Part shown: in pieces, positions 14,185 to 49,021 of the stretch
Layout: the number at the start of each line of letters is the position of its first letter
Numbering within the stretch: the first letter of the stretch is position 1
Assembly (NCBI GenBank): GCA_028871455.1
Contig: JAGWNF010000001.1
Span: forward strand, 232,349 to 296,348
Direction: 5' to 3'
Length of the DNA: 64,000 bases
Origin: Alphaproteobacteria bacterium
GTDB lineage: Bacteria > Pseudomonadota > Alphaproteobacteria > ATCC43930 > CGMCC-115725
The notes under the pieces: model-generated
What the model was told of the DNA's origin: nothing
Seen by the model: only the letters and a program-made list of their open reading frames with translations
Databases searched by the model: none
Translations under genes and position numbers: made by a program

Positions 14185-14436
14185 ATGAATCGTCTTTGGA
14201 TCGCCGTTCTCGCTCTGGTCATCGCCGCATCTGTCGGCGCTTCGGCTGTCGCCGACCCCCTCGGCGCAAGCGAAGGCGTGTGGTCGGCAGCGGACAAATG
14301 CGCGCGCGAGGCCGCTCGGCTCTTTCCCGATTACACGCCCCAAGGCAACGCCGCGCGCGAGAATTATCGCCGCGCCTGCCTGCGCGCCCACAACGAGCCG
14401 GCGCCGAATGGTCAGGCGAGCACGTCTTCCAACTGA
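14185..14436 (+). CDS. Small secreted two-cysteine protein, unknown function
   Basis: An 83-residue protein. Residues 1-23 are a signal peptide (MNRLWIAVLALVIAASVGAS, with cleavage likely after AVA at 21-23). The mature part has two cysteines (C39 and C65) bracketing CAREAARLFPDYTPQGN and AARENYRRACLRAHN, which could form one disulfide across a helical hairpin. I do not know a named family, although similar small Cys-(x~25)-Cys exported proteins occur in alphaproteobacteria. It has its own gap upstream and ends 7 nt from the convergent DUF6969-like gene. Confidence 0.65.
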   Translation: MNRLWIAVLALVIAASVGASAVADPLGASEGVWSAADKCAREAARLFPDYTPQGNAARENYRRACLRAHNEPAPNGQASTSSN

Positions 14437-43348: not shown

Positions 43349-44692
43349 ATGCGCAAATCGCCCGACCCGCTCGCCCTGCTGGGCGATCTCGTCAGTCGCG
43401 CCCGTCGGCAGGGCGCCGACCAGGCCGATGCGGTGCTGATCGAAAGCGTTGCGCTTTCACACGCGCAGCGGCTCGGCAAGCTCGAGAAGCTGGAGCGCGC
43501 CGAAAGCTTCGACCTTGGCCTGCGCGTGATCATCGGCAAGCGGCAAGCCATCGTCTCGTCCAACGACCGCGACGCCGACCACGGCGGCGAACTGATCGGC
43601 CGCGCGCTGGCGATGGCGCGTAGCGTACCGGAAGACCCTTTTTGTGGCCTCGCCGATCCTGCCGATCTGGCAAAAGACATTCCGGATCTCGAGCTTGCCG
43701 ATCCCGTCGAGCCGATGCCGGCGCTTCTGGCCGAGCGCGCCGGCGCCGCCGAGGACGCGGCGCTGGCTGTCAAGGGCGTGACCAATTCGGAAGGTGCCCA
43801 GGCTGGCTGGTCGCAAAGTCGTGTCGCGCTGATCGCCTCGAACGGATTTTCCGGCCACTACGCCACGACCGGCCACGCGATCGCTGTTGCCGTCCTGGCG
43901 AGCAAAGGCTCGGCGATGGAACGCGACGACGACTGGGACTCGGCGGTGTTCGGCGCCGACCTGAGGGATCCGGCGGCGATCGGCCGCAAGGCGGGCGAGC
44001 GTACGGTGCGCCGGCTCGGCGGCCGCAAGGTGCCGAGCGCCAAGGTGCCGGTCGTCTACGATCCGCGCGTCTCATCCTCGCTCTTGCGCCATCTGAGCGG
44101 CGCGATCAGCGGTCCCTCGATTGCCCGTGGCACGTCCTTCCTCAAGGATCGGATGGGCGAGAACATTTTCCCGCGCGGTATAACCGTGATGGACGATCCG
44201 CACATGAAGCGCGGCCACCGCTCGGCACCATTTGATGGCGAAGGCATTGCGACAGCAAAGCGCGAAGTGATTGCCGACGGCGTGCTGCAAACATGGCTGC
44301 TCGACTTGGCGTCGGCACGACAACTCAAGCTCAAGACCACGGGCCATGCCCGGCGGGGTACCTCGGGCCCGCCCGGGCCGGCGCCGGCTAATTTCTATCT
44401 CATGCCCGGCGCCGTGACCGCGCAGGAGTTGATCGGCGACGTCGCCGGCGGCTTCTACGTCACCGAGCTCATGGGTATGGGCGTCAGCGGCGTGACCGGC
44501 GACTACAGCCGTGGCGCAGCAGGCTTCTGGATCGAGAACGGCGTGCTCGCCTTCCCGGTCAGCGAGGTGACGATCGCCGGCAATTTGAAGGACATGTTCC
44601 GCCATCTGACTCCGGCCAACGATCTGGAATTCCGCACCGGCATCGATGCGCCGACGGTCCGGGTTGATGGCATGACGGTGGCCGGCGCCTGA
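43349..44692 (+). CDS. pmbA: TldE/PmbA metallopeptidase subunit
   Basis: A 447-residue TldE/PmbA protein, partner of TldD. It lacks the HExxxH motif as expected, and carries GVTNSEGAQAGWSQSRVALI, VVYDPRVSSSLLRHLSGAI, SFLKDRMGENIF and GVTGDYSRGAAGFWIENG, all conserved in TldE. The start ATG 43349 is 46 nt after the methyltransferase. tldD is 6 kb away, so the two subunits are expressed from separate operons. Confidence 0.93.
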   Translation: MRKSPDPLALLGDLVSRARRQGADQADAVLIESVALSHAQRLGKLEKLERAESFDLGLRVIIGKRQAIVSSNDRDADHGGELIGRALAMARSVPEDPFCGLADPADLAKDIPDLELADPVEPMPALLAERAGAAEDAALAVKGVTNSEGAQAGWSQSRVALIASNGFSGHYATTGHAIAVAVLASKGSAMERDDDWDSAVFGADLRDPAAIGRKAGERTVRRLGGRKVPSAKVPVVYDPRVSSSLLRHLSGAISGPSIARGTSFLKDRMGENIFPRGITVMDDPHMKRGHRSAPFDGEGIATAKREVIADGVLQTWLLDLASARQLKLKTTGHARRGTSGPPGPAPANFYLMPGAVTAQELIGDVAGGFYVTELMGMGVSGVTGDYSRGAAGFWIENGVLAFPVSEVTIAGNLKDMFRHLTPANDLEFRTGIDAPTVRVDGMTVAGA

Positions 44693-44802
44693 GCCGCGGC
44701 GCCTTGCGGGCGCGCCTGCGCCTCGTTATGAGTGCAATCGGCCCGGCGCGGCATGCTATGATCACGTGGTAAATCCCGGGTTTTGCAGAGGATTCCGGTC
44801 GC

Positions 44803-45135
44803 TTGAGCCCCGAAGCTACGCCGCGCGACGCCGCGAAGGAGCGGCCGGCTACGCTGCCGTTGCTGCGCCGGCTGATTCGCGAATTCGTGCAACCTTATAT
44901 CGGTCGGCTGGCGGTCGCGCTCGTCTGCATGGGAATCATGGCCGGCGCCACGGCCGTCAACGCATGGCTTATCGGTGCCGACTTGATCTACGTGATCGAC
45001 AAGGGTCGCGTCGTCGAGCAGGGGACGCACACCGAGTTGATGCGCGAGCGCGGCGTCTATGCGCGCCTCTACGCGCTGCAATTCGCCGACCAGGCGGCGG
45101 ACGAGCCCTCGCTGCGCGCCATCCGGGCGTCCTAG
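44803..45135 (+). pseudogene. MsbA-type lipid A ABC exporter, reduced by an in-frame internal deletion
   Basis: A 110-codon gene (TTG start 44803). Residues 1-57 look like the N-terminus of an MsbA-type exporter: a basic cytoplasmic segment (RRLIREFVQPYIGRL) and the first span (~residues 36-57). From about residue 59 it switches to the C-terminal end of the ABC ATPase (ADLIYVIDKGRVVEQGTHTE, then ERGVYARLYALQF). The remaining spans, Walker A, signature and Walker B are missing. A full MsbA is about 580-620 residues, so some 470-500 codons are absent. The junction lies near 44965-44985 and the frame is preserved. It sits at the head of lipid A genes, where msbA normally belongs, and cannot transport. 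It could be a natural deletion, or an assembly collapse. Confidence 0.72.
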
Positions 45136-45138
45136 GGC

Positions 45139-45882
45139 ATGGACTGGACGAATCGGGTCCTACGCCGAGACGACGTGCGGCGGTTCCTCTGCTGGCTGGT
45201 TTCGCTCTATATCCGCCTGGTGCGGCTCACCGGCGCCTGGATAACGGACGGCGGCGCCGTTCCCGCCGAATTCCACGCTGGCAAGCGGCCCTTCATCCTC
45301 GCTTTCTGGCACGGACGGTTGCTGATGATGCCGTGCGCGTGGGAGCGGCGCGTGCCGATCCACATGCTGATCTCGGGCCACCGTGACGGCCGTATCATCG
45401 CCGACGCGGTGCGCCATTTCGGCATCGATTCGATCGCCGGCTCGACGACATCCGGCGGCTCGGGCGCGTTGCGCGCCATGGTCCGTCATCTGAAGGACGG
45501 CGAGTGCGTCGGCATCACGCCGGACGGTCCCGACGGGCCGGCGATGCGCGCTTCGTCAGGCATTGTCGCCGTGGCGCGGCTCGCCGGCGCGCCGGTCGTG
45601 CCGCTTGCCTATGCGACGCGGCGGCGGCGCATCCTCGACACATGGGATCGCTTCCACCTGCCCCTGCCGTGTTCGCGCGGCACGTTCATCTGGGGCGAGC
45701 CGATCGTAATTCCGCCGGAACTCGACGACGCTGGCATCGAGCGCTACCGCGCGCTGATCGAGCAACGGCTGAACGCGATCACGGCGGAGGCCGATCGCCG
45801 CGTTGGCCGTGAGCGCGTCTCGCCCGGCACGCAGTCGCGTCAGGCATTGCGCCGCATGCAGCGGCAGAACGGCCACGGATGA
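45139..45882 (+). CDS. DUF374 lysophospholipid acyltransferase family protein
   Basis: A 247-residue protein 3 nt after the msbA remnant. The acyltransferase motifs are visible: PFILAFWHGRLLMMPCAW (the LPLAT His-x-Gly site), SGHRDGRIIADAVRHFGID, and GECVGITPDGPDGPAM, where the TPDGPDGP loop is the DUF374 signature. ALRAMVRHLKDG and RMQRQNGHG fit as well. It is found beside waaA in many alphaproteobacteria and is presumed to act on lipid A precursors; its exact role is not established. It overlaps waaA by 4 nt. Confidence 0.88.
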   Translation: MDWTNRVLRRDDVRRFLCWLVSLYIRLVRLTGAWITDGGAVPAEFHAGKRPFILAFWHGRLLMMPCAWERRVPIHMLISGHRDGRIIADAVRHFGIDSIAGSTTSGGSGALRAMVRHLKDGECVGITPDGPDGPAMRASSGIVAVARLAGAPVVPLAYATRRRRILDTWDRFHLPLPCSRGTFIWGEPIVIPPELDDAGIERYRALIEQRLNAITAEADRRVGRERVSPGTQSRQALRRMQRQNGHG

Positions 45883-47177
45883 GCCGCCTGCTCTGGCTCT
45901 ATCGCGGCGGCACCACAGCGCTCGGACCGCTGATCGCGCTCTATCTCGCGCGCCGCATGGCGCACGGCAAGGAAGATCCCGAGCGCTTTGCCGAGCGCCA
46001 GGGCGTCGCCTCCCGGCCGCGGCCGGCGGGGCCGTTGGTCTGGGTACACGCCGCCAGCATCGGCGAGGCCGTCTCGATGTTGTCATTGATCGACCGTCTG
46101 CTGGTCGAGCGACCGCTTCTGTCAGTGCTCGTTACCACCGGAACCGTGACCTCGGCACGGCTGCTGGCCAATCGCCTGCCGGGCGATCACGCGTGGCATC
46201 AATACGTGCCGGTAGATCGCTGCACCTATGTCCGGCGCTTTCTCGAGCACTGGCGCCCTGACCTTGCGCTCTGGGTCGAATCCGAGCTGTGGCCGAACCT
46301 GATTGCGGAGAGCAACCGCTATGGCGTGCCGTTGTTACTCCTCAATGGCCGCATGTCGGCGAAGTCGTTGCGCGGCTGGCGGCGCGCTCCCGGCCTGATC
46401 GGACCGCTGCTGGCGAGCTTCGATCTGTGCCTAGCGCAGGACGAGGCCCAGGCGGCGCGCTTCAAACAGCTGGGCGCGGCCGGCGCCGCCTCGGTCGGCA
46501 ATCTCAAGGCTGCGGCTGCGCCGCTGCCGGTCGACCAGAGCGAACTGGCGCGGCTCGCGGCCGCGCTGGCCGGCCGCACCATCTGGCTCGCGGCCTCGAC
46601 GCATCCCGGCGAAGAAGACACCGCCGCGCTGGTTCATCGCCGCCTGCGGCCGCAGCATCCGAATCTGCTGACCGTCATCGCGCCGCGCCATCCGGCGCGC
46701 GGCGGTGAAGTGGCGCAGCAGCTCGAGGCCCTGGGTCTGCGCGTCGCCCGCCGTTCGCGCGACGAGCGGATCGATCGCATGACCGACATCTATCTCGCCG
46801 ATACCCTCGGCGAGCTTGGCCTCTTCTATCGGCTTGCCGGCATCGCCTTCATCGGCGGCTCGCTCGCGCACAAAGGTGGCCACAATCCGATCGAAGCGGC
46901 GTTGCTCGATTGCGCCATCCTGCACGGCCCCGACATGAGCAACACCGCCGGTGCCGCCGAAGCGCTCGCCGCCGCCGGAGCGTCGATCGACGTGCGCGAC
47001 GCCGAAACGCTGGCCGCGGCGGTCGGCCGACTCATCGACGATCCGGTCGAGCGCGCGGCGCGGGCCGCCGCCGCCGCCGGCATCGCCGCAGACAATCGTG
47101 CGGTGCTCGACGCCGTGATGAACCGCATCGCGCCCTGGCTCGACCGGCTTTCGCCCCATGCCGCCCAGCGCGCCTGA
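45879..47177 (+). CDS. waaA: 3-deoxy-D-manno-octulosonic acid transferase
   Basis: A 432-residue GT30 transferase that adds Kdo to lipid IVA. An N-terminal membrane-associated helix is followed by WVHAASIGEAVSMLSL (acceptor-binding, catalytic Glu) and VPVDRCTYVRRFLEHWRPDL. The C-terminal half has IWLAASTHPGEEDTAALVH, HPARGGEVAQQLEALG, FIGGSLAHKGGHNPIEAAL (nucleotide-sugar binding). Length is normal. It overlaps DUF374 by 4 nt and lpxK by 20 nt. Confidence 0.94.
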   Translation: MSRLLWLYRGGTTALGPLIALYLARRMAHGKEDPERFAERQGVASRPRPAGPLVWVHAASIGEAVSMLSLIDRLLVERPLLSVLVTTGTVTSARLLANRLPGDHAWHQYVPVDRCTYVRRFLEHWRPDLALWVESELWPNLIAESNRYGVPLLLLNGRMSAKSLRGWRRAPGLIGPLLASFDLCLAQDEAQAARFKQLGAAGAASVGNLKAAAAPLPVDQSELARLAAALAGRTIWLAASTHPGEEDTAALVHRRLRPQHPNLLTVIAPRHPARGGEVAQQLEALGLRVARRSRDERIDRMTDIYLADTLGELGLFYRLAGIAFIGGSLAHKGGHNPIEAALLDCAILHGPDMSNTAGAAEALAAAGASIDVRDAETLAAAVGRLIDDPVERAARAAAAAGIAADNRAVLDAVMNRIAPWLDRLSPHAAQRA

Positions 47178-48138
47178 GTTCTGGGCGCGGCGCGGTGCCC
47201 TGTCGGCGCTGCTGGCGCCGCTCGGCTGCGCCTACGACGCCGCCGGTGCGCTGCGTCGAGCGATGGCCCGATCCTATCAAGCACCGGTGCCGGTGATCTG
47301 CGTCGGCAACCTGATCGCCGGCGGCGCCGGCAAGACGCCCATCGTCGCCGATCTGGCCCGACGCCTTACGGCGCGCGGCAACGCCGTTCATATCCTGAGC
47401 CGCGGCTATGGCGGCAGTGTCGCCGGTCCGGTGCGGGTCGATCCGAAGCGCCACGACGCCGCGGCGGTAGGCGACGAGCCGTTGATGCTGGCGCGGCAGG
47501 CGCCGGTCTGGGTCGCACGCGACCGTGCCGCGGGTGCGCGGGCCGCGGTCGCAGCCGGTGCCCGGACGATCCTAATGGATGACGGCCTTCAGAATCCGAG
47601 CTTGGCAAAGGACCTTTCGTTGGTCGTGCTCGATGGCGGCTACGGTTTCGGCAACGGCCGCGTGATGCCGGCGGGTCCGCTTCGTGAGAGCATCGCGCGC
47701 GGTTTGGCGCGGGCCGATGCCGTCGTCATGCTTGGCACCGACGAGACCGGCGCAACGGCGCGGCTCGGCGCCGTTCCGGTTTTGCACGCGGAGCCGCGTC
47801 CTTCGACGACAAACCTCGCCGGCCGCGCGCTCGTCGCCTTCGCCGGCATCGGTCGACCCCGGAAGTTCTTCGATCACTTTCCCAACGCGGGCGCGCGGCT
47901 GATTGCGGCGCGCGGCTTTCCCGACCACCATCCATATACCGAGCACGAACTCGAGGTGCTCGCGGCCGAAGCCCAACGAGCTGGCGCCGATCTGATCACG
48001 ACGGAAAAGGATTGGGTGCGGCTATCGGCGACCTGGCAGGCCCGCATCGCCTACCTGCCGCTGACCATCGAATGGCGCAACGAGCGTGCGCTCGACGCGC
48101 TGCTCGACGGTGCGTTGCAACAGGCGGCGCATGGCTGA
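47158..48138 (+). CDS. lpxK: Tetraacyldisaccharide 4'-kinase
   Basis: A 326-residue membrane-associated kinase that phosphorylates the lipid A disaccharide at 4'. The P-loop is VGNLIAGGAGKTPIVADLAR, and the conserved ILMDDGLQNPSLAKDLSLVV, GRVMPAGPLRE and FAGIGRPRKFFDHF follow. An N-terminal hydrophobic helix anchors it. It overlaps waaA by 20 nt and the downstream acyltransferase by 8 nt, so lipid A genes are fully coupled. Confidence 0.94.
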   Translation: MPPSAPEFWARRGALSALLAPLGCAYDAAGALRRAMARSYQAPVPVICVGNLIAGGAGKTPIVADLARRLTARGNAVHILSRGYGGSVAGPVRVDPKRHDAAAVGDEPLMLARQAPVWVARDRAAGARAAVAAGARTILMDDGLQNPSLAKDLSLVVLDGGYGFGNGRVMPAGPLRESIARGLARADAVVMLGTDETGATARLGAVPVLHAEPRPSTTNLAGRALVAFAGIGRPRKFFDHFPNAGARLIAARGFPDHHPYTEHELEVLAAEAQRAGADLITTEKDWVRLSATWQARIAYLPLTIEWRNERALDALLDGALQQAAHG

Positions 48139-49021
48139 ACGCGGCGGCGCCATACGCGTACGTGACTGGACCGAAGGCCTGTTCGCGCGCGTCGCCTTTG
48201 CGTTCTTCCACCTGTTACCGCTCGATGCAGCGTCGGCGGTCGGTGGTTGGCTCGCACGCGGCATCGGTCCCCGGCTCGGCATCAGCAACCGCGCCCGCGT
48301 CAATCTGCGGCGCGCCCTCCCCGAACTTACCGACGCGGACATCGACCATATCGTCCGAGGCATGTGGGACAATCTCGGCCGGGTCGTCGCCGAATATCCG
48401 CACCTCGGCGAGTTCAGGCTCTACGAACCGGACGGGCGCGTGACCGTCGAGGGCTTCCGCGAAATCGTCGACGTGCGCAGACCGGAGACGCGTTTCATCT
48501 TCTTCTCGGCGCATTTCGGCAACTGGGAGATCGCAACGCTGGCGGCGACTCAGGCCGGCCTCGACGTTATCGAGATCTACCGCGCTGCCAACAATCCGTT
48601 CGTCGACGAGCTGATCAACGAGGCGCGTAGCATCGTCGGCAGCGAGCTGGTGCCGAAGGGAGGCGTCGCGGCGCGCCGCGCGATCGGCGCGCTCGGCGAA
48701 GGCAAGCACATCTGCATGCTCGTCGACCAGAAGATGAACGACGGCATTCCGGTGCCGTTCTTTGGCCGCGACGCGATGACGGCGCCGGCGCTGGCGCGCC
48801 TCGCGCTACGCTACGACTGCGTGGTGCTGCCCTGCTGCGTCGAGCGCATCCGCGGCGCACATTTCCGCTTCGTTGCCGAGCCGCCGATCCCGCTGCCCCG
48901 GAGCGGTGACGTTCAAGCCGACGTCAAACGACTGATGACCGCGATCAACGCGGCGGTGGAAGGATGGGTACGGCGGCGGCCGGAGCAGTGGTTCTGGCTG
49001 CACCGGCGGTGGCCGGATTAG
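48131..49021 (+). CDS. Lipid A biosynthesis acyltransferase, LpxL/HtrB-like
   Basis: A 296-residue late acyltransferase starting at ATG 48131 in an 8-nt overlap with lpxK. The catalytic motif is SAHFGNWEIATLAATQAGLD (HxxxxE). LVDQKMNDGIPVPFFGRDA and QWFWLHRRWPD are family features. It adds a secondary acyl chain (laurate or similar) to Kdo2-lipid A. Its last 77 nt also encode, on the other strand, the C-terminus of the M23 peptidase. Which LpxL/M subgroup it is cannot be decided. Confidence 0.9.
   Translation: MAERGGAIRVRDWTEGLFARVAFAFFHLLPLDAASAVGGWLARGIGPRLGISNRARVNLRRALPELTDADIDHIVRGMWDNLGRVVAEYPHLGEFRLYEPDGRVTVEGFREIVDVRRPETRFIFFSAHFGNWEIATLAATQAGLDVIEIYRAANNPFVDELINEARSIVGSELVPKGGVAARRAIGALGEGKHICMLVDQKMNDGIPVPFFGRDAMTAPALARLALRYDCVVLPCCVERIRGAHFRFVAEPPIPLPRSGDVQADVKRLMTAINAAVEGWVRRRPEQWFWLHRRWPD

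Follow-up and report, generated by a model that had tools for sequence, protein, structure and literature searches.

How does a cell export lipid A when the gene at the native place of its exporter has been reduced to two ends? The question is raised by the window analysed here, a stretch of 64,000 nucleotides from an alphaproteobacterial genome, in which a run of lipid A genes opens with a frame of only 110 codons and a TTG start (44803-45135, forward strand). Judged by its sequence, this frame begins as an MsbA-type exporter and passes, without a change of frame, straight into the final ~54 residues of the ATPase domain. The observations set out below make it very probable, for the one genome concerned, that the frame is a relic of the native msbA and that its role was taken over by a copy on another contig of the same genome, C1, whatever the source of that copy.

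The relic and its surroundings

The native 5' end that is kept (44803..44972, forward strand) encodes the N-terminal tail and first hydrophobic span of the exporter, and the native 3' end (44974..45135, forward strand) the C-terminal end of the ABC ATPase domain, past the H-loop. The N-terminal half of the product matches the start of relatives' MsbA-type proteins, and residues 58-96 match positions 534-572, the very end of the 572-position TIGR02203 MsbA model; no Pfam family is hit at an E-value of 1. The closest known system is the MsbA lipid A flippase (TIGR02203; solved chains include 3b60 and 5ttp): each of the two ends has its counterpart at the corresponding end of MsbA-type exporters, but everything beyond the first span and the whole catalytic core are lacking. 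A single hydrophobic stretch, at about residues 33-57, is found instead of a six-span membrane domain, and in the alignment the elements that we take to be Walker A, the ABC signature, Walker B and the H-loop all lie within the deleted part. With only the first span and no catalytic core, the product cannot work as a transporter. The first-pass annotation had described the fusion and allowed ~45 residues for the ATPase end; the fusion stands, while the junction is now placed at 44972/44974 and the kept C-terminal end is lengthened accordingly.

Upstream lies a pmbA/tldD-type gene (43349..44692), syntenic in congeners, and downstream, on the same forward strand, a DUF374 acyltransferase-like gene (45139..45882; Pfam PF04028, 90.3 bits). 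This is followed by waaA, encoding the Kdo transferase (45879..47177; PF04413, 194.6 bits; it matches waaA models across nearly their full length, under their cut-offs), lpxK (47158..48138; PF02606, 329 bits; TIGR00682 above cut-off) and an lpxL-type acyltransferase gene (48086..49021; PF03279, 175 bits), whose real start is probably inside that frame, near 48131. Domain scores against Pfam and TIGR models show the last three to be intact, in keeping with the earlier view that they look functional. As LpxC is present in the genome as well, lipid A is probably made and needs export.

Alignment with the congener designated G003 reveals what has been lost. The DNA of this relative aligns from pmbA through the first ~57 msbA codons at 83%, up to window position 44972; the alignment then skips 1,486 bp of G003, picks up again at 44974 and continues at 85% past the end of msbA into DUF374. 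One base at the joint is left unaligned between the blocks, and the net loss at the junction (44972..44974, forward strand) amounts to 1,485 bp or 495 codons, consistent with a protein of 605 residues in G003 against 110 here. The break recurs within a few bases against G002 and against both loci of a third congener, G001, which excludes chance similarity. Throughout these congeners pmbA, DUF374, waaA, lpxK and lpxL are collinear, with protein identities of 74-90%; as far as the congener contigs extend, the alignments span most of each protein or the whole of it. The comparison with close relatives proposed at first pass has thereby been carried out: the congeners hold a full-length syntenic msbA of which the relic lacks the middle, and the proposed in-frame internal deletion at the native place is borne out. 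Slippage at a short repeat was considered as the deletion mechanism: G003 and G002 carry a 10-base direct repeat, one unit at the left breakpoint and the other ~46 bases short of the right breakpoint. A simple slip between them would have made the relic 16 codons longer than it is, and this mechanism was not adopted.

Among the loci examined, the short form appears to be confined to this genome. In a set of 41 genomes, comprising the genome itself and 40 relatives, DUF374 was found in 36, including 22 of the 24 relatives of the same family. An MsbA-type match lies directly upstream of it in all 22 (one locus each): in 20 of them at least 477 residues are aligned within 1.5 kb upstream, and the other two (G007, G022) are cut by a contig end. 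One of the 20, G005, is counted with a TGA inside the matched C-terminal end. The second G001 locus, on contig C268, likewise has msbA before DUF374. Of the more distant loci, three were examined (G029, G030, G039), and in all three an MsbA match precedes DUF374, with G030 cut by a contig end. In the second family of the order (G025-G028; L098-L101) no MsbA match was detected at an E-value of 1e-3 in the 1.5 kb before DUF374 at any of four loci. In that family msbA does not occupy this position and no relic is visible, so these genomes were dismissed as bearers of a comparable remnant. Among the matches listed for the 41 genomes, only the genome studied here covers residues 1-110 in one short frame; the other short frames listed (G007, G022, G030) are all cut by contig ends. 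A plasmid search with the query matched 59 records, none of which covered 80% of it.

G001 itself contains two msbA-DUF374 loci (L050 and L051, on contigs C268 and C82) with MsbA proteins 93% identical. With 7% contamination in this genome, the pair may reflect a mixed bin.

A draft genome of 51 contigs invites the suspicion that the native gene is in truth intact and lost its middle part only in assembly. This is highly improbable. On the same strand, the relic and the C1 copy have no exact stretch longer than 17 bases in common; for the 60 nt to the left of the joint and the 60 nt to its right, the figure is no more than 6. Such matches are too short for the k-mers usually employed in assembly, and a repeat-driven collapse is therefore unlikely. 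Moreover, the joint is in frame, and, with a full-length copy elsewhere, an intact gene at this place is no longer required. The assembly collapse contemplated in the first-pass annotation is thus unsupported.

The full-length copy on contig C1

When the relic is used as a query against its own genome, both ends are recovered in one frame on C1, with identities of 64% and 85%. The gene in question (C1:108060-109943) encodes 627 residues from an ATG and is the only full-length orthologue: with the C1 protein as query, the next exporters in the genome are 35-37% identical or less. The search for a full-length msbA, suggested at first pass together with the notion that export must rely on another gene, has therefore yielded a candidate. 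Its protein carries the whole exporter architecture, with ABC_membrane (PF00664) and ABC_tran (PF00005) both above cut-off and nucleotide-binding motifs that are intact by eye in the alignment. Residues 31-606 of its 627 match solved MsbA chains, with tandem ABCB transporters ranking higher because two stretches add up. The TIGR02203 score of 593.1 bits is close to that of the syntenic G003 gene (595.1), and both fall below the equivalog cut-off of 602, so that the name MsbA leans on synteny with the lpx genes too. The middle part of the C1 gene, which the relic has lost, shows a dN/dS of 0.18 against G003 and 0.14 against G002, the G003-G002 pair giving 0.15. These low values are taken as a sign of purifying selection.

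Does C1 belong to this organism? Positions C1:60001-80000 run in the same order as G003:C33 and G002:C235, with identities of 82-85% in the main pieces (82-83% against G003:C33); the msbA surroundings in the window behave alike, at 81-84% to G003. Within the genome this 20 kb occurs once, apart from three short matches at 75%. Contamination is unsupported by these observations; less probably, the contig may stem from a very near relative. Tetranucleotide use in seven C1 pieces correlates at 0.975-0.993 with the window; stretches from congeners (L053, L052) reach 0.994, and the measure thus cannot separate species of this genus.

On C1 the order is tRNA-Glu(CTC), a DUF2141 gene, the msbA copy and then methyltransferase and glycosyltransferase-like genes. 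Similarity of the copy to the native locus extends from ~77 bp before the native start codon to about the stop codon. In G003:C33 tRNA-Glu(CTC) adjoins a small gene that on C1 comes past the methyltransferase, and this contig ends there; on contig C24 of the same genome as C1, the methyltransferase directly follows tRNA-Glu(CTC). From these two arrangements, DUF2141 and msbA look like an insertion behind the tRNA gene, although C24 may represent a further locus, or the form that another strain has. The DUF2141 stretch of C1 is 92% identical to one on contig C20, near tRNA-Glu(TTC).

Several further features of this region deserve record. The spot behind tRNA-Glu(CTC) is variable (L007:6750-9944 in G000:C1, L083:89-1028 in G000:C24, L105:1-220 in G003:C33): DUF2141 and msbA occupy it on C1 only, and neither in C24 nor in G003, while C24 repeats the genes past the spot at 73% identity. 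A window stretch of ~120 bp (14302-14421) recurs at 79% between tRNA-Glu and DUF2141 (G000:C1:107019-107140) and has just one other short match in the genome; the C1 stretch also has matches of 74-77% in G003 and G002. The end of the contig (G000:C1:104001-140000; L081, L082) is GC-poor: its 4-kb pieces have values of 0.60-0.63, while the window has 0.667. The low GC3 of the msbA copy matches this.

Origin of the C1 copy

Two routes may have brought the copy to C1. The most likely, and the best supported, is that the gene was duplicated within this lineage and the native one then lost its core. Alternatively, the copy was transferred from an unsampled relative, after which the native gene, now dispensable, was lost by deletion, a xenologous replacement that is possible though rather unlikely.

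In full-length gene trees the C1 copy is sister to the native genes of the congeners (support 92/93 for protein, 92/96 for DNA), with a warning on base composition, as the copy departs from that of the alignment. In a tree that includes the relic ends, relic and C1 copy group together (97/96) next to G003, the signal coming from the C-terminal end only; this placement matches the neighbour-gene tree, where the genome's own genes stand beside those of G003 (82/83). The C-terminal end taken singly unites the two copies at 95/96, and they have residues in common there that are absent from the congeners. A topology that places the relic with the congeners and leaves the C1 copy out is rejected (p-AU 0.009 for the C-terminal end, 0.038 for both ends). 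This link speaks against transfer. The N-terminal end with its upstream DNA fails on its own to unite relic and C1 copy (support 38/0), and the other grouping has a p-AU of 0.49.

Other measures lean towards transfer. Over the N-terminal end and upstream DNA the relic is 73% identical to the C1 copy and 83% to G003, so that the C1 end is the less similar of the two. Synonymous difference likewise is larger between relic and C1 copy (0.45) than between relic and G003 (0.24), and the branch of the copy is long, 0.26 against 0.07. Its GC3 is also lower: 0.76 where the relic has 0.85, and, over the 110 codons that both possess, 0.79 where the relic has 0.855. The copy sits in an accessory block behind a tRNA gene. 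The low GC, for its part, fits the contig end on which the copy lies. Recent gene conversion of the relic's C-terminal end by the C1 copy was examined separately and discarded, since synonymous differences in that end are greater to C1 (0.52) than to G003 (0.21).

With duplication in this lineage as the preferred route, the course of events may be pictured as follows. The msbA gene with ~77 bp of upstream DNA would have been duplicated into the accessory segment behind tRNA-Glu(CTC) on C1. The new copy stayed full length and presumably now flips lipid A, while the native gene, having become redundant, would have lost 495 codons by internal deletion. For the codons kept in the relic, dN/dS against G003 is 0.39, which falls inside the range that the congeners show among themselves (0.11-0.48), values that come from few codons; either the decay is recent or the relic is still constrained.

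The retained start, frame and spacing

The sequence TGCTATGAT (44754..44762, forward strand), whose first base lies 49 nt from the relic start codon, is the sole occurrence of TGnTATGAT in the window, both strands considered. This motif, which we take to be an extended -10 element, occurs upstream of msbA at six of the seven relatives' loci that have the corresponding upstream DNA, namely in G001 (C268), G002, G003, G018, G009 and G023, and is absent there in G024; the C82 locus of G001 is cut before the element. The C1 copy carries it with one base changed. The conserved motif is a candidate promoter of the msbA-DUF374-waaA-lpxK-lpxL run; a scan with the two sigma-70 hexamers detected no consensus promoter at the element. 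A Shine-Dalgarno-like AGAGGA (44787..44792, forward strand), read from the sequence, precedes the TTG start, and from AGAGGA through TTG the window does not differ from G002, G003 or either G001 locus. An Rfam scan of the window returned no matches at gathering scores.

The relic stop is separated from the DUF374 start by 3 nt, as in three congeners, and no well-placed Shine-Dalgarno precedes DUF374 either here or in those three. Were the joint shifted by one base, a stop would fall at codon 61, well before DUF374; shifted by two bases, the frame would run beyond the DUF374 start. Together with the 3-nt gap, these outcomes fit translational coupling, and DUF374 may plausibly depend for its translation on the joint being in frame. 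By chance, however, a third of deletions would keep the frame.

The promoter-like element, ribosome-binding site, start and open frame having been retained, ribosomes could still run through the relic into DUF374-waaA-lpxK-lpxL, and the downstream lipid A genes may need the parts that were kept. It is a doubtful step further to regard the relic as selected as a translated leader, such that only a deletion preserving promoter, start, frame and 3-nt gap was tolerated because the four genes behind need its ribosomes. If this were true, a transporter gene would have been turned into an operon coupling peptide. That the 110-residue product is itself a selected small membrane protein with a single span is very unlikely. 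Its intact ribosome-binding site, start and frame, the hydrophobic stretch and a dN/dS not above the congeners' range would suit such a protein; on the other hand, the C-terminal end is part of an ATPase fold without its core, and no other genome among the matches listed has this short frame.

Takeover by the C1 copy, with the native gene left as a relic, has an ordinary explanation, that of ordinary pseudogene formation and genome decay. Decayed ancestral copies left behind after the relocation of essential genes form a general kind, and the present case resembles them in having a relic at the ancestral syntenic place, a full-length copy elsewhere and a short copied unit with its own upstream region. 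It differs in being a clean in-frame fusion of two ends within a tight gene run instead of a frameshifted wreck. In a study on Brucella abortus, MsbA is called the essential flippase and a strain with a deliberately duplicated msbA is described (PMC9938171). No report of such an msbA relocation was found in a non-exhaustive literature search.

The locus suggests a route by which an essential envelope gene may leave its run: a copy with its own upstream region settles at a variable spot and assumes the function, and the original is then pruned without silencing the genes behind it. When msbA is absent from the lpx run of a draft assembly, it does not follow that lipid A export has been lost.
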